DNA of 64,000 bases from Flavobacteriales bacterium (GTDB lineage: Bacteria; Bacteroidota; Bacteroidia; Flavobacteriales_E; Vicingaceae). The stretch is from NCBI GenBank assembly GCA_015075325.1, contig JABTUP010000001.1:124001-188000 (forward strand), given 5' to 3'. The notes below the pieces were generated by a model that saw only the letters and a program-made list of their open reading frames with translations, did not search any database and was not told where the DNA came from. Position numbers and translations under genes: made by a program. This document shows, in pieces, positions 17,974-32,868 of this stretch (positions are counted from its first letter, which is position 1; each line of letters begins with the position of its first letter).

Positions 17974-20673
17974 ATGAAAAAAATAATATTATTTCTAACT
18001 GTAACAATGGGTTTATTTTTAAACCAAACAAAAGCTCAAGTAACAGTAAATAACACCAATACAGTTCAATTTTACGTTCAAAATGTGTTACTCGGAGGTG
18101 GTGTAACGGTTAGTAATATTACCTACAATGGTGTTCCAGCAGGAATTGTTGATGCAAAAGTTGGTCAATTTACAGATCCAACTTCTTCAGTAGGTTTAGC
18201 AAATGGAATGATACTGGCAACTGGTGATGCCATAATAGCTCAAGGACCAAACAGTTCTGGTGGTGCAGGAAACTCTGCTGGAATTGGAACTTCTGGACAA
18301 GACCCTGACTTAAGTGCAATTACAACCAATCCATTAAACGACCAGTGTATTGTTGAATTTGATTTTGTGCCACTCGGAGATACCCTTACTTTTAATTACG
18401 TTTTTGCTTCAGAAGAATATAACGAATATGTATGTTCAGATTACAATGATGTTTTTGGTTTTTTTCTAACAGGTAATGATCCATTAGGAGGCACATATAA
18501 TGCCTATAATTTAGCTAGAGTTCCAACACCTGGTGTTCCAGGTTCATTTACAAATACTCCAGTTGCAATTAACACAATTACTCCAGGAGTTGCAGGTTCA
18601 AATGGTGATGCGGCAAATTGTTCTGCAATCGACCCAAGTTGGACTGCATATAGTATTTACCATGTTACCAATAGTTCTAACAATTATCAATATGATGGTA
18701 GAACAGTTAGTTTGCCTGTATTTGCTTTAGTTAATTGTGGTGAAACATACCACATTAAAATGGCTATTGCCGATGTTCAAGATGGTGCTTTTGATTCGGG
18801 TGTATTTTTAGAAGCTGGTAGTTTTGCATCCAACGGATCTTTAGATGCTACAACAGCAGTTGTTCCTAATGATATCATGTTGTGTTCTCAACCTTACGAA
18901 ATTACTGTTAATGCAGGACCAACCCCTCCTCCAATCAGTTTTTGGGATTTTGGCGATGGAATTGGAACTTCAAATCTTGCAAATACAACCTATACCTATG
19001 CAGATACTGGAACTTATACTGTAACTTACATCGCCTCAGATCCTTCTGCATGTGTTGAGTCTGATACTGCTTATTTTACAGTTACCATAAGAGAAAATGT
19101 TCCTTTAGATGCTCAAATCAACATTCCTCCGTACGACCCTTGTTCTCCAGGTGGTTTAACCATTGATTTCGAATTTACTGGTGCTGGAGCCGATTCTATC
19201 CATTGGAATATGGGTAATGGAACTACATTTATCGATAGTACATCTTTTCAATACACCTATACTGTTGGAGGAAGTTATGTTTTAACTTTCCAAGCATGGG
19301 ATTTTGATTGTGGTGGGTATTCTCAAATTATAGATACCGTTCATTTCAACCCTAACTACACTCAAGTTAATGCAACTCCTCCTGGTAATCAATCTTTCTG
19401 TTCTCAACCTTATTTGGTGAATTTTGATGCTGGGGCTACTCCTCCGCCTAACAACTTCTGGGATTTTGGCGATGGCGTTGGTACTTCAACCCTTGCAAAC
19501 ACTTCTTATACTTATGCCGACACTGGTATTTATAACGTAATGTATGTGGCTATCGATTCTAGCACTTGTAATATTGCTGATACTGCTTATTTTACTGTTG
19601 AATTGATTAAACCTGAAGAATTGAATGCTCAATTCGTTATTCCTCCTTACGACCCTTGCTCTCCTAGTGGTTTAACTGTTCAGCTTGATTTTACTGGAAC
19701 TGGTGCCGATTCTATTTACTGGAATATGGGTGATGGAACTTCTTTTATTAATGATACTTCTGTTACTTATACTTACAATACTCCGGGTACTTTCTTCTTA
19801 GAATTTATTGCTTTTGATTTCGATTGTAATGTTTCTGATACCATTAGAGATACTATTTTTTACAATCCTACTACAACCACTGTTACTGCGGTTGTTCCAC
19901 CTAACATTACCATTTGTGGCTCTCCTTTAACTGTTAACTTCAACTCGGGTAGCCCTGCTCCTCCTCAAAATTTCTGGGATTTTGGTGATGGTAATACTTC
20001 TACTGCTATTGACCCTGCTCACAACTATGCTACTACTGGAACTTACACTGTAATGTTTGTCGCTATCGATTCTTCTACTTGTAACATTGCTGATAGTGCA
20101 ACTTTTAGCGTTAGTTTAGCTCAAGCTCCCGATTTAAATGTTAACATCGCTTACACACCACCAGTACCATGTGAAGCAACTAATTATAAAGTGGAACTAA
20201 GTGCTATTGGTTCTGGTGCCGATTCTATCTATTGGAATATGGGCGACGGAACAACATATATTGATTCTACTTTTATTGCCTACGAATATGCTTCTGCAGG
20301 TACATACAACATCGCTGTTTCATTGTTCAACTTCTTCTGTAACAGAATTGTAACCGAAAATTTAGTAGCAGAGTTTTATGAACCTAAAGAAACTAAGGGT
20401 ATCGTTCCTAACGTATTCACTCCTAATGGCGATAATTGGAACGACAAATTGGTTTTTGTTGGTGTTGACAATACTCAAGATTTTAGTATTAAAATATTCG
20501 ACCGTTGGGGTAGAAAAAAATTCGAATCTACTGATGCTACTGACCATTGGGATGGTGAAAATGCTTCGGAAGGTACTTACTTCTACGAACTTAAATATAC
20601 CGACGTATGTAGCAATATAGAAAAACTAGTTACTGGTACAGTTACGCTACTTAGAGGCCCTAAAAAACAGTAA
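17974..20673 (+). CDS. Secreted choice-of-anchor L / PKD-repeat protein with T9SS type B sorting domain (PKD protein A)
   Basis: An 899-residue exported protein. A signal peptide (MKKIILFLTVTMGLFLNQ, then TKAQ) is followed by a domain recognised as choice-of-anchor L (GMILATGDAIIAQGPNSSGG, FVFASEEYNEYVCSDYNDVF-like block, residues ~30-300). Six PKD modules follow from about residue 310, alternating FWDFGDG and WNMGDG/WNMGNG forms spaced about 85 residues apart. The end, from about residue 808 (GIVPNVFTPNGDNWND, IKIFDRWGRKKFES), is the gliding-motility-associated C-terminal domain used for type IX secretion and surface attachment. Likely a cell-surface adhesin or matrix protein (inference). 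The 3' third is nearly identical in DNA to the two genes downstream. Confidence 0.93.
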   Translation: MKKIILFLTVTMGLFLNQTKAQVTVNNTNTVQFYVQNVLLGGGVTVSNITYNGVPAGIVDAKVGQFTDPTSSVGLANGMILATGDAIIAQGPNSSGGAGNSAGIGTSGQDPDLSAITTNPLNDQCIVEFDFVPLGDTLTFNYVFASEEYNEYVCSDYNDVFGFFLTGNDPLGGTYNAYNLARVPTPGVPGSFTNTPVAINTITPGVAGSNGDAANCSAIDPSWTAYSIYHVTNSSNNYQYDGRTVSLPVFALVNCGETYHIKMAIADVQDGAFDSGVFLEAGSFASNGSLDATTAVVPNDIMLCSQPYEITVNAGPTPPPISFWDFGDGIGTSNLANTTYTYADTGTYTVTYIASDPSACVESDTAYFTVTIRENVPLDAQINIPPYDPCSPGGLTIDFEFTGAGADSIHWNMGNGTTFIDSTSFQYTYTVGGSYVLTFQAWDFDCGGYSQIIDTVHFNPNYTQVNATPPGNQSFCSQPYLVNFDAGATPPPNNFWDFGDGVGTSTLANTSYTYADTGIYNVMYVAIDSSTCNIADTAYFTVELIKPEELNAQFVIPPYDPCSPSGLTVQLDFTGTGADSIYWNMGDGTSFINDTSVTYTYNTPGTFFLEFIAFDFDCNVSDTIRDTIFYNPTTTTVTAVVPPNITICGSPLTVNFNSGSPAPPQNFWDFGDGNTSTAIDPAHNYATTGTYTVMFVAIDSSTCNIADSATFSVSLAQAPDLNVNIAYTPPVPCEATNYKVELSAIGSGADSIYWNMGDGTTYIDSTFIAYEYASAGTYNIAVSLFNFFCNRIVTENLVAEFYEPKETKGIVPNVFTPNGDNWNDKLVFVGVDNTQDFSIKIFDRWGRKKFESTDATDHWDGENASEGTYFYELKYTDVCSNIEKLVTGTVTLLRGPKKQ

Positions 20674-20693
20674 TTTTTACTTCCTTATAAAAT

Positions 20694-20721
20694 AAGCCCT
20701 TTGAAAAATTTCAAAGGGCTT
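20694..20721. terminator. Shared cluster terminator, copy 1
   Basis: Thirteen-base arms AAGCCCTTTGAAA and TTTCAAAGGGCTT, followed by a T tract, 20 nt after the stop of PKD protein A. The same hairpin follows all four PKD genes. Confidence 0.85.
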
Positions 20722-20902
20722 ATTTTTTTATAATACACCATCAATTTTTTTATTTAGGAGATTGATGCTTGTTAAAAAATTTTAACCAAACAAGCGATGT
20801 GTTAAAAAACATAGTATTTTTATCTAAAAACAAATAAAGTTTCACTATATGACAATAAATTAATATTTTAGCTGCAACTGTTTTTATAAAAAACAAGTCT
20901 TT

Positions 20903-20915
20903 AAAAAAAAAAAAA
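20903..20915 (+). repeat. A13 homopolymer upstream of PKD protein B1
   Basis: A run of 13 A bases ends 10 nt before the start codon at 20926; a second run of eight A sits in codons 2-5. An identical tract is at 25226-25238 before the duplicate. Such runs are prone to slippage, but no evidence of variation can be seen in one sequence. Confidence 0.6.
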
Positions 20916-20925
20916 TTAAAAATTT

Positions 20926-23900
20926 ATGATAAAAAAAATTAATCTACTTACTGCATTTTTATTGGTAGTAAATGTTATTGCTTTTGCTCATAACTATAAA
21001 GAATCTGATTATCACTTCACTGAAAATAAAGGGCAGTTAGATAATAAGGTAAAATATCATGCTAAAATACATGTTGGTGATATTTTCTTTGAGAAAAATG
21101 CGTTTACTTTCGATTTATTTAACGCTGAAGATTTAGATTTAGCGTATAAAGTAAGACACGATAAAAAATCTCGTGAGCTAAATGCAAACAAACCTATTAC
21201 ACTAAGAAAAAGTGCATATAGAATGAATTTTCTTAACTCAAATCCAAATGTTTTTCTTTCTACTACTGAGAATATTGGATATGTAAAAAACTACTTTATT
21301 GGTAATGATCCTTCTAAATGGGCTTCAGATGTTGAATCGTTTGAAAGACTTACCTATCATGAAATTTACAACGGAATTAGTGCCGAAATATACACACAAG
21401 ATGATCATTTAAAATATGATTTTATTGTAAAAGCTGGTGCTAATCCTAGTGATATTGTTGTTAATTACGATGGAGTTATTAGTTTAAATCTCAACCATGG
21501 TATTTTAGAAATTAGCCTTAAAAACACTTCTGTAAAAGAACTAAAACCAATTGCATATCAATACATACAAGGAAAAAAACAGTTGATAGATTGTGAATTT
21601 GTTGTTAATGGTACCAACGTATCATTTAAATTTCCTCAAGGATATGATAACACAAAAGAATTAATAATTGACCCAACTTGGATATTCTCTACATTAACAG
21701 GTTCTACTGCCGATAACTGGGGTTTTACTGCAACTTACGATGATAGTGGCAACTTTTATGGTGGAGGTATTGCCTTTGCTTCGGGTTTTCCAACAACAAC
21801 TGGTGCATATGATGTTTCTTTTGGAGGAGTTATTGATGCAGCAATAATTAAATACAATCCTTTAGGAACTGCTAGAGTTTATGCAACTTACATCGGAGGT
21901 TCTCAAGCAGATCAACCTCATAGTTTAGTAACCAATGATTTAGGTGAATTAGTAATTTATGGTGTAACAGGATCAAACAATTTTCCAACACAAAATGCTT
22001 TCGATGCGACTTTTAATGGAGGTACTTCCGTTGCTCCAAATGCTGCGACATTCTCTAATGGGTCGGATATTTTTGTAACAAAATTAAATGCCGCAGGAAA
22101 TGGTTTAATTGGTAGTACTTATGTGGGAGGAACAGGAAACGACGGATTTTCCTTAAATACAAGTTTACAATATAACTATTCAGATGAAAATAGAGGTGAA
22201 GTTGTAATTGACAACAATGGTGATATCTATGTTGCTTCAACCACAATTTCAACAAATTTTCCAACAACACCAGGAAGCCATAAACAAACCAACTCTGGAA
22301 ATTATGATGCCGTTGTTTTTAAACTTACTCCAACATTAAACGCTCTTACATGGTCAACATATTTAGGAGGTTCTAGCGGTGATGCTGGATATTCTATTCG
22401 TGTTAATGAATCAAATAACACCATAGTAGTTTGTGGAGGAACAGTAAGTAACAACATTGGAACCACTCCTGGAGTAATTAACCCAACCTATGGTGGATCT
22501 ACCGATGGATACATTGGTGTATTTAATAATTCTAATGGTTCTTTAAATGCACTTTCATATGTTGGAACTGCTGGATATGACCAAGCTTATATTGTTGAAG
22601 TAGATAAATTTGGAAATGTATTTACAACAGGTCAAACAAAAGGTGCATATCCTGTTACTAGTGGAGTTTATAGTAATCCAGGTTCATCTCAATTTATTCA
22701 TAAAATGAATAGTTCTTTATCTTCAACTGATTTTAGTACAGTTTTTGGAAGAGGCCAGAATAGTTCTATTGACATATCTATTACAGCATTTTTGGTTGAT
22801 AATTGTAGTAATGTTTATGTTGCTGGTTGGGGAGGCGGAAGTAATAACGAAGGAACTACTTCAGGATTACCTGTTACAACTGGAGCAATAAAAAGTACAA
22901 CAGATGGTGGTGATTTTTACTTCATTGTTTTAGAAAGAGATGCTGCTAGCTTATTGTACGGAACTTTTTTTGGACATAATAGTTCGCAAGAACATGTTGA
23001 TGGTGGTACTTCCCGTTTTGACAAAAGAGGAACCATTTATCAAGGCGTATGTGCTGCTTGTGGCGGTGGAAATAATTTCCCGTCTTCTCCTGGTGCTTAT
23101 TCTAGTACAAACGGTTCTTCAAACTGTAATTTCGGTGCAATTAAAATTGGACTTGAATTCCAAGGTATAGTTGCAAATGCCGACGATCCAGGAGATGTTT
23201 TATTGTGTGGAACTCCATATAATGTCGATTTTAATGCAGGTTCAACACCACCACCTCTAACTTTCTGGGATTTTGGTGATGGAAATACGCTAGGAATTGG
23301 TAGCTTTAATACTCCAACTCATACTTATGCTGATACTGGCAGCTATACCGTTATGTATGTAGCAATTGATTCATCTTCTTGTAATATTGCTGATACTGTG
23401 TTTTTTGACGTAAGAGTTATAAACAATGGAACGCTTGATGCTCAAATCAATATTCCTCCTTATGACCCCTGTGATGATAGTTTAACTGTTCAATTCGCAT
23501 TTACAGGTAGTGGAGCTGATTCTCTTTATTGGAATATGGGTGATGGAACTATATTTATTAACGATACTCTCATCAACTATACTTATACAACAAATGGGGT
23601 TTTTCCAATTTTATTTGAGGCTTACGACTTTGCTTGTGGTGGATTTAATACAGTTCGAGACACTATTTATTTTACTCCTAACTTTACTCAGGTTAATGCT
23701 ACTCCTCCTGGTAATCAATCTTTCTGTTCTCAACCTTATTTGGTGAATTTTGATGCTGGGGCTACTCCTCCGCCTAACAACTTCTGGGATTTTGGCGATG
23801 GTGTTGGTTCTTCTATTCTTCCTAATCCACAATACACGTATGGCGATACTGGTACTTATACCGTAATGTATGTGGCTATCGATTCTAGTACTTGTAACAT

Positions 23901-24996
23901 TGCTGATACTGCTTATTTTACTGTTGAATTGATTAAACCTGAAGAATTAGATGCTCAATTCGTTATTCCTCCTTACGACCCTTGTCAACCAACATTAACC
24001 GTTCAGTTTGATTTTACTGGAACTGGTGCCGATTCTATTTACTGGAACATGGGTGATGGCACTTCTTTTATCAACAACATTTCGGTTAATTATACTTACA
24101 ACACACCGGGTGTTTATCCTGTTGAGTTTATTGCTTTCGATTTCGATTGTAATGTTTCCGATACCATTAGAGATACTATCTATTTCAATCCTACTACAAC
24201 CACTGTTACTGCGGTTGTTCCACCTAACATTACCATTTGTGGCTCTCCTTTAACTGTTAACTTCAACTCGGGTAGCCCTGCTCCTCCTCAAAATTTCTGG
24301 GATTTTGGTGATGGTAATACTTCTACTGCTATTGACCCTGCTCACAACTATGCTACTACTGGAACTTACACTGTAATGTTTGTCGCTATCGATTCTTCTA
24401 CTTGTAACATTGCTGATAGTGCAACTTTTAGCGTTAGTTTAGCTCAAGCTCCCGATTTAAATGTTAACATCGCTTACACACCACCAGTACCATGTGAAGC
24501 AACTAATTATAAAGTGGAACTAAGTGCTATTGGTTCTGGTGCCGATTCTATCTATTGGAATATGGGCGACGGAACAACATATATTGATTCTACTTTTATT
24601 GCCTACGAATATGCTTCTGCAGGTACATACAACATCGCTGTTTCATTGTTCAACTTCTTCTGTAACAGAATTGTAACCGAAAATTTAGTAGCAGAGTTTT
24701 ATGAACCTAAAGAAACTAAGGGCATTGTTCCAAACGTATTCACTCCTAATGGCGATAATTGGAACGACAAATTAGTTTTTGTTGGTGTTGACAATACTCA
24801 AGATTTTAGTATTAAAATATTCGACCGTTGGGGTAGAAAAAAATTCGAATCTACTGATGCTACAGACCATTGGGATGGTGAAAATGCCTCGGAAGGTACT
24901 TACTTCTATGAGCTTAAATATACCGACGTTTGTAGCAACATAGAAAAACTAGTTACTGGTACAGTTACGCTACTTAGAGGCCCTAAAAAACAGTAA
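20926..24996 (+). CDS. Secreted SBBP beta-propeller / PKD-repeat protein with T9SS type B sorting domain (copy B1)
   Basis: A 1356-residue exported protein. The signal peptide is within MIKKINLLTAFLLVVNVIAFA. Residues ~30-250 form a conserved N-terminal domain (FTENKGQLDNKVKYHAKI), then a beta-propeller region of SBBP-like repeats (residues ~250-740; repeated YIGGSQADQPHSL, YVGGTGNDGFSL, YLGGSSGDAGYS blocks). Six PKD modules follow (about 745-1260), again alternating WDFGDG and WNMGDG, then the gliding-motility C-terminal sorting domain (~1265-1356) ending RGPKKQ. It differs from the next gene by one residue (Ser1231 here, Ala there). Its last few hundred bases and downstream spacer match PKD protein A, which marks it as a chimera. 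Confidence 0.93.
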   Translation: MIKKINLLTAFLLVVNVIAFAHNYKESDYHFTENKGQLDNKVKYHAKIHVGDIFFEKNAFTFDLFNAEDLDLAYKVRHDKKSRELNANKPITLRKSAYRMNFLNSNPNVFLSTTENIGYVKNYFIGNDPSKWASDVESFERLTYHEIYNGISAEIYTQDDHLKYDFIVKAGANPSDIVVNYDGVISLNLNHGILEISLKNTSVKELKPIAYQYIQGKKQLIDCEFVVNGTNVSFKFPQGYDNTKELIIDPTWIFSTLTGSTADNWGFTATYDDSGNFYGGGIAFASGFPTTTGAYDVSFGGVIDAAIIKYNPLGTARVYATYIGGSQADQPHSLVTNDLGELVIYGVTGSNNFPTQNAFDATFNGGTSVAPNAATFSNGSDIFVTKLNAAGNGLIGSTYVGGTGNDGFSLNTSLQYNYSDENRGEVVIDNNGDIYVASTTISTNFPTTPGSHKQTNSGNYDAVVFKLTPTLNALTWSTYLGGSSGDAGYSIRVNESNNTIVVCGGTVSNNIGTTPGVINPTYGGSTDGYIGVFNNSNGSLNALSYVGTAGYDQAYIVEVDKFGNVFTTGQTKGAYPVTSGVYSNPGSSQFIHKMNSSLSSTDFSTVFGRGQNSSIDISITAFLVDNCSNVYVAGWGGGSNNEGTTSGLPVTTGAIKSTTDGGDFYFIVLERDAASLLYGTFFGHNSSQEHVDGGTSRFDKRGTIYQGVCAACGGGNNFPSSPGAYSSTNGSSNCNFGAIKIGLEFQGIVANADDPGDVLLCGTPYNVDFNAGSTPPPLTFWDFGDGNTLGIGSFNTPTHTYADTGSYTVMYVAIDSSSCNIADTVFFDVRVINNGTLDAQINIPPYDPCDDSLTVQFAFTGSGADSLYWNMGDGTIFINDTLINYTYTTNGVFPILFEAYDFACGGFNTVRDTIYFTPNFTQVNATPPGNQSFCSQPYLVNFDAGATPPPNNFWDFGDGVGSSILPNPQYTYGDTGTYTVMYVAIDSSTCNIADTAYFTVELIKPEELDAQFVIPPYDPCQPTLTVQFDFTGTGADSIYWNMGDGTSFINNISVNYTYNTPGVYPVEFIAFDFDCNVSDTIRDTIYFNPTTTTVTAVVPPNITICGSPLTVNFNSGSPAPPQNFWDFGDGNTSTAIDPAHNYATTGTYTVMFVAIDSSTCNIADSATFSVSLAQAPDLNVNIAYTPPVPCEATNYKVELSAIGSGADSIYWNMGDGTTYIDSTFIAYEYASAGTYNIAVSLFNFFCNRIVTENLVAEFYEPKETKGIVPNVFTPNGDNWNDKLVFVGVDNTQDFSIKIFDRWGRKKFESTDATDHWDGENASEGTYFYELKYTDVCSNIEKLVTGTVTLLRGPKKQ

Positions 24997-25016
24997 TTTT
25001 TACTTCCTTATAAAAT

Positions 25017-25044
25017 AAGCCCTTTGAAAAATTTCAAAGGGCTT
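25017..25044. terminator. Shared cluster terminator, copy 2
   Basis: The same 13-bp-arm hairpin as at 20694-20721, inside a 252-bp spacer that repeats 20674-20925 base for base as far as I compared. Confidence 0.85.
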
Positions 25045-25248
25045 ATTTTTTTATAATACACCATCAATTTTTTTATTTAGGAGATTGATGCTTGTTAAAA
25101 AATTTTAACCAAACAAGCGATGTGTTAAAAAACATAGTATTTTTATCTAAAAACAAATAAAGTTTCACTATATGACAATAAATTAATATTTTAGCTGCAA
25201 CTGTTTTTATAAAAAACAAGTCTTTAAAAAAAAAAAAATTAAAAATTT

Positions 25249-28200
25249 ATGATAAAAAAAATTAATCTACTTACTGCATTTTTATTGGTAGTAAATGTTA
25301 TTGCTTTTGCTCATAACTATAAAGAATCTGATTATCACTTCACTGAAAATAAAGGGCAGTTAGATAATAAGGTAAAATATCATGCTAAAATACATGTTGG
25401 TGATATTTTCTTTGAGAAAAATGCGTTTACTTTCGATTTATTTAACGCTGAAGATTTAGATTTAGCGTATAAAGTAAGACACGATAAAAAATCTCGTGAG
25501 CTAAATGCAAACAAACCTATTACACTAAGAAAAAGTGCATATAGAATGAATTTTCTTAACTCAAATCCAAATGTTTTTCTTTCTACTACTGAGAATATTG
25601 GATATGTAAAAAACTACTTTATTGGTAATGATCCTTCTAAATGGGCTTCAGATGTTGAATCGTTTGAAAGACTTACCTATCATGAAATTTACAACGGAAT
25701 TAGTGCCGAAATATACACACAAGATGATCATTTAAAATATGATTTTATTGTAAAAGCTGGTGCTAATCCTAGTGATATTGTTGTTAATTACGATGGAGTT
25801 ATTAGTTTAAATCTCAACCATGGTATTTTAGAAATTAGCCTTAAAAACACTTCTGTAAAAGAACTAAAACCAATTGCATATCAATACATACAAGGAAAAA
25901 AACAGTTGATAGATTGTGAATTTGTTGTTAATGGTACCAACGTATCATTTAAATTTCCTCAAGGATATGATAACACAAAAGAATTAATAATTGACCCAAC
26001 TTGGATATTCTCTACATTAACAGGTTCTACTGCCGATAACTGGGGTTTTACTGCAACTTACGATGATAGTGGCAACTTTTATGGTGGAGGTATTGCCTTT
26101 GCTTCGGGTTTTCCAACAACAACTGGTGCATATGATGTTTCTTTTGGAGGAGTTATTGATGCAGCAATAATTAAATACAATCCTTTAGGAACTGCTAGAG
26201 TTTATGCAACTTACATCGGAGGTTCTCAAGCAGATCAACCTCATAGTTTAGTAACCAATGATTTAGGTGAATTAGTAATTTATGGTGTAACAGGATCAAA
26301 CAATTTTCCAACACAAAATGCTTTCGATGCGACTTTTAATGGAGGTACTTCCGTTGCTCCAAATGCTGCGACATTCTCTAATGGGTCGGATATTTTTGTA
26401 ACAAAATTAAATGCCGCAGGAAATGGTTTAATTGGTAGTACTTATGTGGGAGGAACAGGAAACGACGGATTTTCCTTAAATACAAGTTTACAATATAACT
26501 ATTCAGATGAAAATAGAGGTGAAGTTGTAATTGACAACAATGGTGATATCTATGTTGCTTCAACCACAATTTCAACAAATTTTCCAACAACACCAGGAAG
26601 CCATAAACAAACCAACTCTGGAAATTATGATGCCGTTGTTTTTAAACTTACTCCAACATTAAACGCTCTTACATGGTCAACATATTTAGGAGGTTCTAGC
26701 GGTGATGCTGGATATTCTATTCGTGTTAATGAATCAAATAACACCATAGTAGTTTGTGGAGGAACAGTAAGTAACAACATTGGAACCACTCCTGGAGTAA
26801 TTAACCCAACCTATGGTGGATCTACCGATGGATACATTGGTGTATTTAATAATTCTAATGGTTCTTTAAATGCACTTTCATATGTTGGAACTGCTGGATA
26901 TGACCAAGCTTATATTGTTGAAGTAGATAAATTTGGAAATGTATTTACAACAGGTCAAACAAAAGGTGCATATCCTGTTACTAGTGGAGTTTATAGTAAT
27001 CCAGGTTCATCTCAATTTATTCATAAAATGAATAGTTCTTTATCTTCAACTGATTTTAGTACAGTTTTTGGAAGAGGCCAGAATAGTTCTATTGACATAT
27101 CTATTACAGCATTTTTGGTTGATAATTGTAGTAATGTTTATGTTGCTGGTTGGGGAGGCGGAAGTAATAACGAAGGAACTACTTCAGGATTACCTGTTAC
27201 AACTGGAGCAATAAAAAGTACAACAGATGGTGGTGATTTTTACTTCATTGTTTTAGAAAGAGATGCTGCTAGCTTATTGTACGGAACTTTTTTTGGACAT
27301 AATAGTTCGCAAGAACATGTTGATGGTGGTACTTCCCGTTTTGACAAAAGAGGAACCATTTATCAAGGCGTATGTGCTGCTTGTGGCGGTGGAAATAATT
27401 TCCCGTCTTCTCCTGGTGCTTATTCTAGTACAAACGGTTCTTCAAACTGTAATTTCGGTGCAATTAAAATTGGACTTGAATTCCAAGGTATAGTTGCAAA
27501 TGCCGACGATCCAGGAGATGTTTTATTGTGTGGAACTCCATATAATGTCGATTTTAATGCAGGTTCAACACCACCACCTCTAACTTTCTGGGATTTTGGT
27601 GATGGAAATACGCTAGGAATTGGTAGCTTTAATACTCCAACTCATACTTATGCTGATACTGGCAGCTATACCGTTATGTATGTAGCAATTGATTCATCTT
27701 CTTGTAATATTGCTGATACTGTGTTTTTTGACGTAAGAGTTATAAACAATGGAACGCTTGATGCTCAAATCAATATTCCTCCTTATGACCCCTGTGATGA
27801 TAGTTTAACTGTTCAATTCGCATTTACAGGTAGTGGAGCTGATTCTCTTTATTGGAATATGGGTGATGGAACTATATTTATTAACGATACTCTCATCAAC
27901 TATACTTATACAACAAATGGGGTTTTTCCAATTTTATTTGAGGCTTACGACTTTGCTTGTGGTGGATTTAATACAGTTCGAGACACTATTTATTTTACTC
28001 CTAACTTTACTCAGGTTAATGCTACTCCTCCTGGTAATCAATCTTTCTGTTCTCAACCTTATTTGGTGAATTTTGATGCTGGGGCTACTCCTCCGCCTAA
28101 CAACTTCTGGGATTTTGGCGATGGTGTTGGTTCTTCTATTCTTCCTAATCCACAATACACGTATGGCGATACTGGTACTTATACCGTAATGTATGTGGCT

Positions 28201-29319
28201 ATCGATTCTAGTACTTGTAACATTGCTGATACTGCTTATTTTACTGTTGAATTGATTAAACCTGAAGAATTAGATGCTCAATTCGTTATTCCTCCTTACG
28301 ACCCTTGTCAACCAACATTAACCGTTCAGTTTGATTTTACTGGAACTGGTGCCGATTCTATTTACTGGAACATGGGTGATGGCACTTCTTTTATCAACAA
28401 CATTTCGGTTAATTATACTTACAACACACCGGGTGTTTATCCTGTTGAGTTTATTGCTTTCGATTTCGATTGTAATGTTTCCGATACCATTAGAGATACT
28501 ATCTATTTCAATCCTACTACAACCACTGTTACTGCGGTTGTTCCACCTAACATTACCATTTGTGGCTCTCCTTTAACTGTTAACTTCAACTCGGGTAGCC
28601 CTGCTCCTCCTCAAAATTTCTGGGATTTTGGTGATGGTAATACTTCTACTGCTATTGACCCTGCTCACAACTATGCTACTACTGGAACTTACACTGTAAT
28701 GTTTGTCGCTATCGATTCTTCTACTTGTAACATTGCTGATAGTGCAACTTTTAGCGTTAGTTTAGCTCAAGCTCCCGATTTAAATGTTAACATCGCTTAC
28801 ACACCACCAGTACCATGTGAAGCAACTAATTATAAAGTGGAACTAAGTGCTATTGGTTCTGGTGCCGATTCTATCTATTGGAATATGGGCGACGGAACAA
28901 CATATATTGATTCTACTTTTATTGCCTACGAATATGCTGCTGCTGGTACATACAACATCGCTGTTTCATTGTTCAACTTCTTCTGTAACAGAATTGTAAC
29001 CGAAAATTTAGTAGCAGAGTTTTATGAACCTAAAGAAACTAAGGGCATTGTTCCAAACGTATTCACTCCTAATGGCGATAATTGGAACGACAAATTAGTT
29101 TTTGTTGGTGTTGACAATACTCAAGATTTTAGTATTAAAATATTCGACCGTTGGGGTAGAAAAAAATTCGAATCTACTGATGCTACTGACCATTGGGATG
29201 GTGAAAATGCTTCGGAAGGCACTTACTTCTACGAACTTAAATATACCGACGTTTGTAGTAACATAGAAAAACTAGTTACAGGAACGGTTACATTACTAAG
29301 AGGCCCTAAAAAACAGTAA
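25249..29319 (+). CDS. Secreted SBBP beta-propeller / PKD-repeat protein with T9SS type B sorting domain (copy B2)
   Basis: The second 1356-residue copy, with the same signal peptide, N-terminal domain, SBBP propeller, six alternating PKD modules and T9SS type B sorting domain as its neighbour. At residue 1231 it has Ala in place of Ser (GCTGCTGCTGG at 28936-28946). The final 40 bp and the downstream spacer do not match copy B1. They match the end of the 1103-residue gene instead (ACAGGAACGGTTACATTACT, then TAATAAATACACAT). This suggests copy B2 keeps the ancestral 3' end while copy B1 acquired the end of protein A. Role at the cell surface is inferred. Confidence 0.93.
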   Translation: MIKKINLLTAFLLVVNVIAFAHNYKESDYHFTENKGQLDNKVKYHAKIHVGDIFFEKNAFTFDLFNAEDLDLAYKVRHDKKSRELNANKPITLRKSAYRMNFLNSNPNVFLSTTENIGYVKNYFIGNDPSKWASDVESFERLTYHEIYNGISAEIYTQDDHLKYDFIVKAGANPSDIVVNYDGVISLNLNHGILEISLKNTSVKELKPIAYQYIQGKKQLIDCEFVVNGTNVSFKFPQGYDNTKELIIDPTWIFSTLTGSTADNWGFTATYDDSGNFYGGGIAFASGFPTTTGAYDVSFGGVIDAAIIKYNPLGTARVYATYIGGSQADQPHSLVTNDLGELVIYGVTGSNNFPTQNAFDATFNGGTSVAPNAATFSNGSDIFVTKLNAAGNGLIGSTYVGGTGNDGFSLNTSLQYNYSDENRGEVVIDNNGDIYVASTTISTNFPTTPGSHKQTNSGNYDAVVFKLTPTLNALTWSTYLGGSSGDAGYSIRVNESNNTIVVCGGTVSNNIGTTPGVINPTYGGSTDGYIGVFNNSNGSLNALSYVGTAGYDQAYIVEVDKFGNVFTTGQTKGAYPVTSGVYSNPGSSQFIHKMNSSLSSTDFSTVFGRGQNSSIDISITAFLVDNCSNVYVAGWGGGSNNEGTTSGLPVTTGAIKSTTDGGDFYFIVLERDAASLLYGTFFGHNSSQEHVDGGTSRFDKRGTIYQGVCAACGGGNNFPSSPGAYSSTNGSSNCNFGAIKIGLEFQGIVANADDPGDVLLCGTPYNVDFNAGSTPPPLTFWDFGDGNTLGIGSFNTPTHTYADTGSYTVMYVAIDSSSCNIADTVFFDVRVINNGTLDAQINIPPYDPCDDSLTVQFAFTGSGADSLYWNMGDGTIFINDTLINYTYTTNGVFPILFEAYDFACGGFNTVRDTIYFTPNFTQVNATPPGNQSFCSQPYLVNFDAGATPPPNNFWDFGDGVGSSILPNPQYTYGDTGTYTVMYVAIDSSTCNIADTAYFTVELIKPEELDAQFVIPPYDPCQPTLTVQFDFTGTGADSIYWNMGDGTSFINNISVNYTYNTPGVYPVEFIAFDFDCNVSDTIRDTIYFNPTTTTVTAVVPPNITICGSPLTVNFNSGSPAPPQNFWDFGDGNTSTAIDPAHNYATTGTYTVMFVAIDSSTCNIADSATFSVSLAQAPDLNVNIAYTPPVPCEATNYKVELSAIGSGADSIYWNMGDGTTYIDSTFIAYEYAAAGTYNIAVSLFNFFCNRIVTENLVAEFYEPKETKGIVPNVFTPNGDNWNDKLVFVGVDNTQDFSIKIFDRWGRKKFESTDATDHWDGENASEGTYFYELKYTDVCSNIEKLVTGTVTLLRGPKKQ
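25249..29319 (+). repeat. Tandem duplication unit 2
   Basis: Second copy of the duplicated gene. It matches unit 1 at an offset of 4323 bp from the start codon to about 28935. Differences then appear in patches up to the stop, and the spacer beyond the stop is unrelated to that of unit 1 apart from the terminator hairpin. Confidence 0.9.
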
Positions 29320-29342
29320 TAAATACACATTAATACATAAAT

Positions 29343-29370
29343 AAGCCCTTTGAAAAATTTCAAAGGGCTT
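29343..29370. terminator. Shared cluster terminator, copy 3
   Basis: AAGCCCTTTGAAA and TTTCAAAGGGCTT arms with a T tract, preceded by TAAATACACATTAATACATA, the spacer type also found after the 1103-residue gene. Confidence 0.85.
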
Positions 29371-29505
29371 GTTTTTTTTAACTTAAAAACCTTATATTTT
29401 TAATATTTAAACAAAAACTTAAAAATAAGAGACTTCATCTTTGAAAAAACAAACGTAACCTTTACATTAGTAAAATGTAATTTTTAATAAAACAAACAAG
29501 AAATA

Positions 29506-32500
29506 ATGAGAAAAAAAGTACACTTAATTTTAATATTTTCTTTGATAGTATTAAATACATTTTCACAACAAACGAATATTAAAAAAGATATTAATTATGA
29601 AGTTACTAAATATATTAGTAATGATAAATTAAACAAAGAAGTAAAGGAGTTTTTAGTAAAACAAATCAGAAAAACTAACTTAGTTAAGAATAGTGATAAT
29701 CACGATTTGGTTCATTTTTTCTTAGATAGATATGAAAATAGTATTAAACAAATGATAATTAGTCGATTTGAAAATCAAAAATCGATTACCCATGATGAAT
29801 TAAATAATATTATTGAAAATGAGTTCCTTCCTAAACTAGTTGATTCTTTTAATAAATATAACTTGAAATATCCAAAAACAAAAAGCTCAGTCAAAAATAA
29901 TCAAATAGATTTCATCAAATTTAAAAACAATCAAAACTTAAAAGGTGCAGGTGAACCATGTTTAAATGCTGATTTTGAAACACAAGACGCAACGGGTTGG
30001 GATTTAGCTCAAGGAGAAGTTGATGCAGCACCAACAGCACCATTTAATTACATAAATGTTACCCCAACAACTCTTGCTACTTCAACTCAACATTCTATTA
30101 TGACAGGTGCAGGAACCGATGCAATTGGTGGTTTTCCTGTAGTATTTCCAGGAGGAACCTCATCATTGATGTTGGGTGATGGAACAGGAACAAATAATAG
30201 TGCAGCAGATGCATCTCAAACATTTTTAGTTGATGCAAATTCAGCCGCTTTTAGTTACAGTTATGCAATAGTTTTAATGGACCCTGGACATACTGCAGCC
30301 GAACAGCCATATTTTAAAATAAATATGTATGATTCTTTAGGAAACACTATTCAGTGCGGTGATTATTCAGTAGTTGCGGGAGGTGGCTCTGGTGCCGACC
30401 CCGATTTTCTTCCTTTCACCTATGGGGGAGAAAATGGAGTTTATATGCCTTGGAGAACTACATTTGCTCCATTACAAGGTTATATCGGGCAAAATGTTAC
30501 AATTGAGTTTGTTGTTGGTGATTGTTCTCAAGGAGCTCACTTTGGATACGCATATATCGATGCATCTTGTTCGTCGATGGAAGTACTTGGTCCTGATACC
30601 ATTACATGTGATGGCCCTATTCAAATAACCGCTCCTCCAGGAGCAGCTAGTTACTTATGGAGCCCAACAGGAGAAACAACCCAATCAATTACAGTTACTA
30701 CACCCGGACAATATGAAGTTCAAGTAACTCCTGTAACAGGTGCTGTATGTAGCATAACATTAACTAAAGATATCTATGAATTTGTAGATACAGTAAATGC
30801 ATCGTTTAGTGCAAATCCATTAACAATTTGTACTGGAGAAACGGTTTCTTTTACTGATCAATCTACAGTTACTGGTTCAGGATTAATTTCGGCATGGGAA
30901 TGGGATTTTGATGGTGACGGTAATGTTGATAACATGAATCAAAATCCAAATTTTCAATACAATACTGCAGGTATTTATAATGTTAATTTAAATGTAATTA
31001 CTCAAGGCTGTTCTGATGATACTACTATGCAAATTATTGTTAATCAAACTCCTACTGCAAATTTTGAATCTCCTGAAGTTTGTTTAGGACTAACTTCTGT
31101 ATTTACTGATGTTTCATTAGGAACACCATCAACATGGGCTTGGGATTTTGATAACGATGGAAATGTTGATGAATCTATTCAGAATCCTACCTTTACATAC
31201 TCTTCAACAGGAACTTTTCCTGTAAAATTAACTGTAACTGATGGTGGATTTTGTTCACACGATACTATTATTAATGTTATTGTTTCTCAGAATTCAACAG
31301 CAATGTTTACCGCAACAACAGTTTGTTTAGGGGTTGCAACTAATTTTACTGATGCGTCATTAGGTGGTGTTAATACTTGGGGATGGGATTTTGATAATGA
31401 TGGTATTGTTGATAATACAACCCAAAATCCAAGTTTTACATTTGGCACAATAGGTACTTTCCCTGTTAATCTTCAAGTATCTGTTGGTAGTAACTGCCAA
31501 CATGATACCACCATTAATGTAACAGTTAACGAAAGTGCTATTGCAAATTTTAGTGCCTCAACAGTATGTTTTGGTAGTACCACAACTTTTACAGACAATT
31601 CTTCCTTAGGTGTAGATTCTTGGGAATGGGATTTTAACAATGATGGGGTAATTGATAACACTACTCAAAACCCAACTTATGTTTTCCCTTCTTCTGGTTC
31701 TTTTCCTGTTAATCTTCAAGTTTCTGTTGGAGGACAATGTTCAAATGATACCACAATAAACATTACTGTAAATAATATGGCTGTGGCTAATTTTACATTT
31801 ACACCAACATGTCAAAACGATACAACTTTAATGAATGATTTATCATCATCTGGTGTTGACACTTGGAATTGGGATTTTAATAACGATGGGGTGATAGATA
31901 ATACGAATCAAAACCCTAGCTTTATTTTTCCATCTTCAGGTTCATTTCCAGTTAATTTAGAAGTTTCATACAGTGGTAATTGTGTTCATGATACTACTAT
32001 AAATATTACTATTTCACCTAAACCATCAGCAAATTTTACATCTAGTAGCGAGTGTTTTGGAAATGCAACCAATTTTGTTGATAATTCACTTTCTAATGGA
32101 GGTATTATTACTCAATGGAATTGGGATTTTAATAATGATGGAGTGGTTGATAATACAAGTCAGAATCCTACAAATACATTAACATCTTCGGGTTCGCATC
32201 AAGTCGAATTAATTGTTACAACTAATAATGGTTGCTCAGATTCCATAATGTTGAATGTAAATGTACTTTCAAATCCAATAGCTGACTTTAATATCGAATC
32301 CAATCCTTGCGAAACTAATAATGTAACATTTTCAAATATTTCGACAAATGGTGACGGGATAATATCTTCATATTTTTGGGATATAAATAACGACGGAACA
32401 ATAGAATCAACACTTTCAAGTCCTTTATTTGATTTTAGCAATTTATCTAATGTTACAATATTTCTTGCTATTGGGGACAACAATGGATGTGTTGACACTA

Positions 32501-32817
32501 CAGTTAAAGTATTAGACATCATTAAAAATGAACTCAAGGAAAATATTGTGCCTAATATTTTTACTCCAAATGGAGATAATTGGAATGATTTATTAGTTGT
32601 TAAAGGAATTGATGACACAAAAGATTATAGCATTAAAATATTTAACCGTTGGGGAAGATTAATGTTCGAATCTAAAGACGCAACAAAATATTGGGATGGA
32701 GAAGGAGCAGATGATGGCACTTATTTTTATGAACTAAAATACACTGCCATGTGTAGTTCGGAAGAAAAATTAGTAACAGGAACGGTTACATTACTAAGAG
32801 GTCCTAAAAAACAGTAA
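29506..32817 (+). CDS. Secreted PKD-repeat protein with T9SS type B sorting domain (PKD protein C)
   Basis: An 1103-residue exported protein. The signal peptide is MRKKVHLILIFSLIVLNTFS. Residues ~25-140 are charged and probably helical (VKEFLVKQIRKTNLVKNSDN), followed by an uncharacterised region (GEPCLNADFETQDATGWDLA) resembling a carbohydrate-binding-type beta domain. An Ig-like segment (GAASYLWSPTGETTQSITVT) precedes seven PKD modules of the form WxWDFDNDGxVDNxxQNP, each about 80 residues. The C-terminal type B sorting domain starts near 1010 (NIVPNIFTPNGDNWND) and ends in the same TGTVTLLRGPKKQ as the other three proteins. The PKD modules differ from those of proteins A and B, so only the C-terminal tag and the 3' end are shared. 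Confidence 0.92.
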   Translation: MRKKVHLILIFSLIVLNTFSQQTNIKKDINYEVTKYISNDKLNKEVKEFLVKQIRKTNLVKNSDNHDLVHFFLDRYENSIKQMIISRFENQKSITHDELNNIIENEFLPKLVDSFNKYNLKYPKTKSSVKNNQIDFIKFKNNQNLKGAGEPCLNADFETQDATGWDLAQGEVDAAPTAPFNYINVTPTTLATSTQHSIMTGAGTDAIGGFPVVFPGGTSSLMLGDGTGTNNSAADASQTFLVDANSAAFSYSYAIVLMDPGHTAAEQPYFKINMYDSLGNTIQCGDYSVVAGGGSGADPDFLPFTYGGENGVYMPWRTTFAPLQGYIGQNVTIEFVVGDCSQGAHFGYAYIDASCSSMEVLGPDTITCDGPIQITAPPGAASYLWSPTGETTQSITVTTPGQYEVQVTPVTGAVCSITLTKDIYEFVDTVNASFSANPLTICTGETVSFTDQSTVTGSGLISAWEWDFDGDGNVDNMNQNPNFQYNTAGIYNVNLNVITQGCSDDTTMQIIVNQTPTANFESPEVCLGLTSVFTDVSLGTPSTWAWDFDNDGNVDESIQNPTFTYSSTGTFPVKLTVTDGGFCSHDTIINVIVSQNSTAMFTATTVCLGVATNFTDASLGGVNTWGWDFDNDGIVDNTTQNPSFTFGTIGTFPVNLQVSVGSNCQHDTTINVTVNESAIANFSASTVCFGSTTTFTDNSSLGVDSWEWDFNNDGVIDNTTQNPTYVFPSSGSFPVNLQVSVGGQCSNDTTINITVNNMAVANFTFTPTCQNDTTLMNDLSSSGVDTWNWDFNNDGVIDNTNQNPSFIFPSSGSFPVNLEVSYSGNCVHDTTINITISPKPSANFTSSSECFGNATNFVDNSLSNGGIITQWNWDFNNDGVVDNTSQNPTNTLTSSGSHQVELIVTTNNGCSDSIMLNVNVLSNPIADFNIESNPCETNNVTFSNISTNGDGIISSYFWDINNDGTIESTLSSPLFDFSNLSNVTIFLAIGDNNGCVDTTVKVLDIIKNELKENIVPNIFTPNGDNWNDLLVVKGIDDTKDYSIKIFNRWGRLMFESKDATKYWDGEGADDGTYFYELKYTAMCSSEEKLVTGTVTLLRGPKKQ

Positions 32818-32840
32818 TAAATACACATTTATACATAAAT

Positions 32841-32868
32841 AAGCCCTTTGAAAAATTTCAAAGGGCTT
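32841..32868. terminator. Shared cluster terminator, copy 4 (bidirectional)
   Basis: The same 13-bp-arm hairpin, lying between convergent genes: it follows PKD protein C on the plus strand and the MscS gene (stop at 32879) on the minus strand, with A/T tracts on both sides. Confidence 0.85.

Follow-up and report, generated by a model that had tools for sequence, protein, structure and literature searches.

How did a bacterial genome come to contain two adjacent, almost identical copies of a large gene, the first of which ends like the gene upstream of it? This question is raised by the window analysed here, i.e. a stretch of 64,000 nt (G000:C1:124001-188000) from a 3.3 Mb draft genome of 62 contigs, designated G000. 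For the genus comparison four genomes were used (G000-G003), and one genome of another genus (G034) was added.

According to the list of open reading frames, the window contains four genes in succession on the + strand, A, B1, B2, and C. Gene A (17974..20673; 899 aa) matches NF038133, PF18911, PF13585, and TIGR04131, and its product consists of a choice-of-anchor L head, PKD repeats, and a CHU_C / T9SS type B sorting tail. Gene B1 (20926..24996; 1356 aa) matches PF25778, PF06739, PF18911, and PF13585, i.e. a DUF7948 start, an SBBP match, PKD repeats, and a CHU_C tail. Gene B2 (25249..29319; also 1356 aa) differs from B1 at 14 of 4071 nt. Gene C (29506..32817; 1103 aa) encodes PKD repeats and a CHU_C tail, and its downstream neighbour is a convergent MscS-like gene. 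The CHU_C / TIGR04131 C-terminal domain was above the cut-off in the three genes scanned (A, B1, and C). By their domains, all four products belong to the PKD proteins and carry T9SS type B tails, and secretion by the T9SS is predicted.

The spacer between A and B1 (20674..20925, 252 bp) comprises a putative terminator hairpin of A followed by the upstream region of B, and its 3′ part is kept in the alignment with the pre-B spacer of G003. The hairpin is a 32-mer (20690..20721, + strand), an almost perfect palindrome. It has four copies in the whole G000 genome, each at one of the four cluster ends (the others are at 25013-25044, 29339-29370, and 32837-32868). Within the upstream region, the 18-bp element TATTTTAGCTGCAACTGT (20864..20881, + strand; second copy at 25187-25204) is also kept before B in the G003 alignment, and it is a candidate promoter or 5′-UTR of B. 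A sigma-70 promoter scan yielded 38 sites versus 41.0 expected and was thus uninformative.

A sequence-only reading of the window had proposed that B1 is a chimera of a B head and an A tail, produced by unequal crossing-over. The identities on which it was based were confirmed. The spacer 20674-20925 has the same sequence as the spacer 24997-25248, and the two lie in the two copies of a duplicated run of 3999 identical bp (20617..24615, + strand, equal to 24940-28938) that extends from the end of the tail across the spacer and the B head. The identity of more than 500 bp between A and B1 (19863-20394 and 24186-24717, 532 bp) was found to be slightly longer, namely 537 bp (19863..20399 in A and 24186..24722 in B1, both + strand). 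The end of B2 is indeed unlike that of B1, with 12 differences from 24864 to 24975 followed by a different spacer. Chance can be excluded as the origin of the A/B1 block, because the similarity of A and B is only about 86-91% in stretches of 300 nt just upstream of it or running into it. B2 is likewise identical to A over 19863-20292 (430 bp, identical in all three genes), so that A and B had this block in common either before the crossover or independently of it.

The distance between the tails of A and B1 and that between the tails of B1 and B2 is 4323 bp in each case, to the base and in a gap-free register, and this offset persists without gaps from 19672 across the tail and up to 28938. 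The repeat unit is thus the distance from the A tail to the B tail, as demanded by tandem duplication through unequal crossing-over. Because the two spacings are equal and gap-free, the order A-spacer-B1-spacer-B2 is best explained by unequal homologous recombination involving the 3′ ends of the A and B genes, and this part of the earlier proposal stands; its single breakpoint fails (see below). Tandem duplication through the tails, with B1 ending like A, is thus well supported by the sequence comparisons.

We therefore favour, with a probability of roughly three in four, the explanation that A, B, and C have homologous 3′ ends which recombine with one another, that an unequal exchange between an A tail and a B tail duplicated B, and that separate conversions generated a mosaic in the tails and probably the C-like end of B2. 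The recombining unit would comprise the last PKD part, the CHU_C sorting domain, the stop codon, and the putative terminator, and neighbouring genes would pair through these tails. We infer that the A tail on one sister chromosome recombined with the B tail on the other, which would double the segment from the A end through the spacer to B and yield A-B1-B2-C. The duplicated interval includes the upstream region of B, so that each B copy has its own upstream region and putative terminator.

At the protein level, the notion of a chimera does not hold. The last 125 encoded residues are the same in A, B1, and B2, and S1231A is the sole residue difference between the B1 and B2 proteins. The chimera seen in the DNA is therefore silent, i.e. 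a gene-dosage duplication. The outcome would be a second B gene encoding nearly the same protein and no new protein, and a benefit, if any, would likely be one of dosage.

A long identical repeat in a draft of 62 contigs could also be an assembly artefact. We regard this as very improbable, since the window is free of N, B1 and B2 differ in their ends and neighbours, and a contig of 279 kb runs through the region.

The position of the crossover was addressed with the sites that vary among the three tails. Between 20293 and 20652 (A coordinates) there are 20 such sites, 19 of them silent, and the deviating base is found in A at 6, in B1 at 4, and in B2 at 10 sites. A-odd, B1-odd, and B2-odd sites occur in mixed order in a mosaic zone (20293..20616 in A, 24616-24939 in B1, and 28939-29262 in B2, all + strand). 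Upstream of this zone B1 equals B2, and downstream of it B1 equals A. Clustering of the site classes within the zone is modest, as the number of runs was equally low in 484 of 20000 shuffles. The 217 bp directly downstream of the 537-bp block (20400-20616) contain 10 silent differences between A and B1; B1 agrees with B2 at six of these and has a private base at the other four. The 10 differences represent older variation, because they are crowded into 217 bp with an identical run on either side (537 and 3999 bp). Their origin by uniform point mutation was rejected (probability about 9e-12).

The earlier claim that one event inside the 19863-20394 block suffices is contradicted by these 10 downstream sites. 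A single crossover in this block with no further event would explain the identity of the spacer and of the tail end as well as the equal spacing, but it would demand 10 silent mutations in 217 bp and none in the surrounding 4.5 kb or so, and the end of B2 is C-like. It is thus scarcely credible. A breakpoint scan revealed 10-12 discordant sites for positions 19863-20403 and a minimum of 8 at 20452-20574, 20608-20613, or 20617-20634. At least eight discordant sites are hence found wherever one clean ancestry switch is placed within the homologous stretch.

A crossover in the 19863-20399 block could be combined with a later conversion of B1 by B2 over 20400-20616. The longest three-way identity (19863-20292, 430 bp) would have been the best substrate, and the B2-odd sites 20293 and 20298 would require no extra event. 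Against this, ten sites are discordant unless the conversion is added, the four B1-private sites are still without a donor, and a crossover at 20617-20634 requires no conversion from B2 to B1 at all. We consider this variant possible, with the odds somewhat against it. Under the favoured explanation of unequal exchange plus separate conversions, the variable sites place the crossover within the shared tail, from 19863 to about 20634, and no finer. Separate short conversions, before or after the crossover, would have generated the mosaic zone 20293-20616 and probably brought the end of C onto B2. Conversion would thus copy short tracts, and occasional unequal crossing-over would double the interval between two tails. 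We infer the timing and direction of each conversion tract from these patterns.

No donor of the four B1-private alleles was found among the tails of the G000 genome. A search of G000 with the A-tail DNA (E <= 0.001) returned eight matches, of which four were A, B1, B2, and C, the only tails; the remaining four were palindromic hairpins on the opposite strand.

The end of B2 resembles that of C. At the B2-odd coding sites from 20574 (A coordinates) onward, C has the base of B2 in 8 of 8 cases; the B2-private sites 20293 and 20298 are not accounted for by C. Between positions -29 and +60, counted from the end of the stop codon, 86 of 90 bases are the same in B2 and C. Agreement falls to 8/30 beyond +60, and it is 19-23/30 in the four windows before -29. 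In the B2-C spacer (29320..29505), the first ~60 bp match the 3′ flank of C and not that of A: the post-stop windows of C agree with B2 at 29/30 and 28/30 positions, versus 9-11/30 for A. The C-like tract (29259..29378, + strand) thus covers the last ~60 bp of the ORF, the stop codon, and the putative terminator. Exact runs shared by B2 and C within the coding tail are short (26 nt).

The end of B2 with its putative terminator is therefore probably a conversion tract from C rather than the parental B end. Conversion in the reverse direction (B2 to C), or descent of the B and C ends from one ancestral sequence, would also be compatible with the similarity. G003 has its own hairpin, a different 30-mer, at two places only, before B and after C, both in its cluster, and its pre-C spacer contains no copy. 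This absence mildly favours C as the donor.

Gene order and copy number were compared in the relatives. A heads were found at E <= 1e-60 in three of the four genus genomes (G000, G002, and G003), and close B heads in G002 (73%) and G003 (80%). No A head was detected in G001 at this threshold, and the most similar B-like head of this genome reaches 45%. G002 has a single B adjoining A; the order is B-A, and the pair is flanked by valS and an MscS-like gene (L101 8306-16245). The last 185 nt of its A and B differ at one position. The flanks of this pair correspond to those around A..C in G003, where valS lies upstream of A with one intervening ORF and an MscS-like gene lies downstream of C.

In G003, the final 127 bp are common to the contigs of A and B, and the initial 127 bp to those of B and C. 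The three contigs (L048, L102, and L103) break at 127 bp of tail sequence common to the A and B genes, and no contig for the tail node itself was found in the assembly. The shared contig ends are probably the result of an assembly graph with k=127 that was broken at the shared repeat. The arrangement in G003 is consistent with A-B-C and identical A/B tails, and an array of B genes is possible, as the shared tail flanks the B contig on both sides.

This observation bears on an alternative in which the two B genes form an old tandem array whose identity over about 4 kb is maintained by gene conversion. Conversion appears to be active at the locus, and the B contig of G003 with the shared tail on both sides would fit, but G002 has only one B next to A, and 3999 identical bp that include a non-coding spacer are more simply explained by a recent duplication. 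We regard an old array as unlikely, and we retain a recent duplication of B by exchange between the tails. In G034, a B-like gene begins 183 bp downstream of A and is cut off by the contig end. Because A lies directly upstream of a B-like start in this genome of another genus, A-B is probably the ancestral order, from which B-A in G002 would be derived. A duplication followed by a loss via the shared tails would produce the latter order, and is its likely origin.

Similarity of heads follows the gene, whereas similarity of tails follows the genome. Among the three genus members with both A and B, the heads are 63-71% identical for A-A and 60-73% for B-B at the amino acid level, and A heads and B heads have only short or weak matches to one another. 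Over 35 codons, the tails of A and B are 99% identical in G002, 100% in G003, where the tail is a collapsed assembly node that could mask near-identity, and 90-95% in G000. Orthologous tails of different genus genomes are 64-78% identical over 35 codons. The tails within a genome are thus closer than orthologous tails in 3 of the 3 genomes that hold both A and B.

The hairpins are also genome-specific. No near-matching form of the 32-mer of G000 was found in G001-G003, and the 30-mer of G003 was not found in G000 or G002.

Exact sharing within the last 300 nt was used as a further measure. Pair identities from a gapped aligner were set aside, as this aligner gives about 0.75 for unrelated DNA. 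The cluster pairs share 175 nt in G002 and 89, 167, and 26 nt in G000, versus at most 17 nt in 12 adjacent T9SS-tailed pairs at other loci that served as controls. The idea that tail sharing is a general trait of T9SS gene arrays is thus unsupported by the 12 adjacent pairs checked. When 30 of the 42 tail matches of G000 were compared (435 pairs), the longest exact run outside the A/B cluster was 33 nt. This run belongs to two other T9SS tails of G000 (L018 and L026).

The 3′ ends of A and B therefore appear, by these comparisons, to evolve in concert by conversion. The sharing of tails by A and B is not the single outcome of the crossover in G000, as it recurs in G002 and G003. A broader interpretation is tentative: the sorting tail and terminator might be a portable 3′ cassette in the genus, recurrent conversion keeping neighbours on one sorting sequence, and the same cassette driving the duplication of B in G000 and the change from A-B to B-A in G002. 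If this were true, unrelated heads would share a single evolving tail.

Concerted evolution of bacterial duplicates by gene conversion is well known for tufA/tufB and for the rRNA operons. These systems and the release factor genes resemble the present locus in that conversion acts between paralogous stretches of one genome. They differ in that here only the 3′ end and the terminator appear to be homogenised and the heads are unrelated. That bacterial paralogues undergo gene conversion and unequal crossing-over is well established (PMC4530459, PMC12046097), and the release factor study describes concerted evolution of duplicated bacterial genes through gene conversion (PMC4530459). In Porphyromonas gingivalis, rearrangements of gingipain/haemagglutinin domains occur in T9SS cargo genes (PMC5266723), and T9SS cargo, modular repeats, and recombination are common to both cases. 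According to that report, the variation is found between strains and in catalytic/adhesin domains, in contrast to the silent homogenisation of sorting tails and the whole-gene tandem duplication proposed here. Repeat-associated conversion and duplication have been described for M. tuberculosis (PMC12046097). The likeness lies in gene conversion plus duplication in a bacterial genome; that work concerns other genes and has outbreak-level evidence, whereas the present study is a comparison of genomes. No description of concerted evolution confined to T9SS sorting tails was found in the open-licence literature searched.

The locus is a clear example, in bacteria, of otherwise unrelated genes that evolve in concert at their 3′ ends only, i.e. 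in the secretion signal and terminator. It illustrates how cargo genes can be duplicated, and perhaps brought into a new order, through shared 3′ ends. Phylogenies based on tails would lead to wrong orthology, and short-read assemblies can break precisely at shared tails, as in G003. Elsewhere in G000, at G000:C45:132778-133956, another gene has a C-like head (49% at the amino acid level), and the C-like gene of G002 likewise lies apart from its A/B pair.
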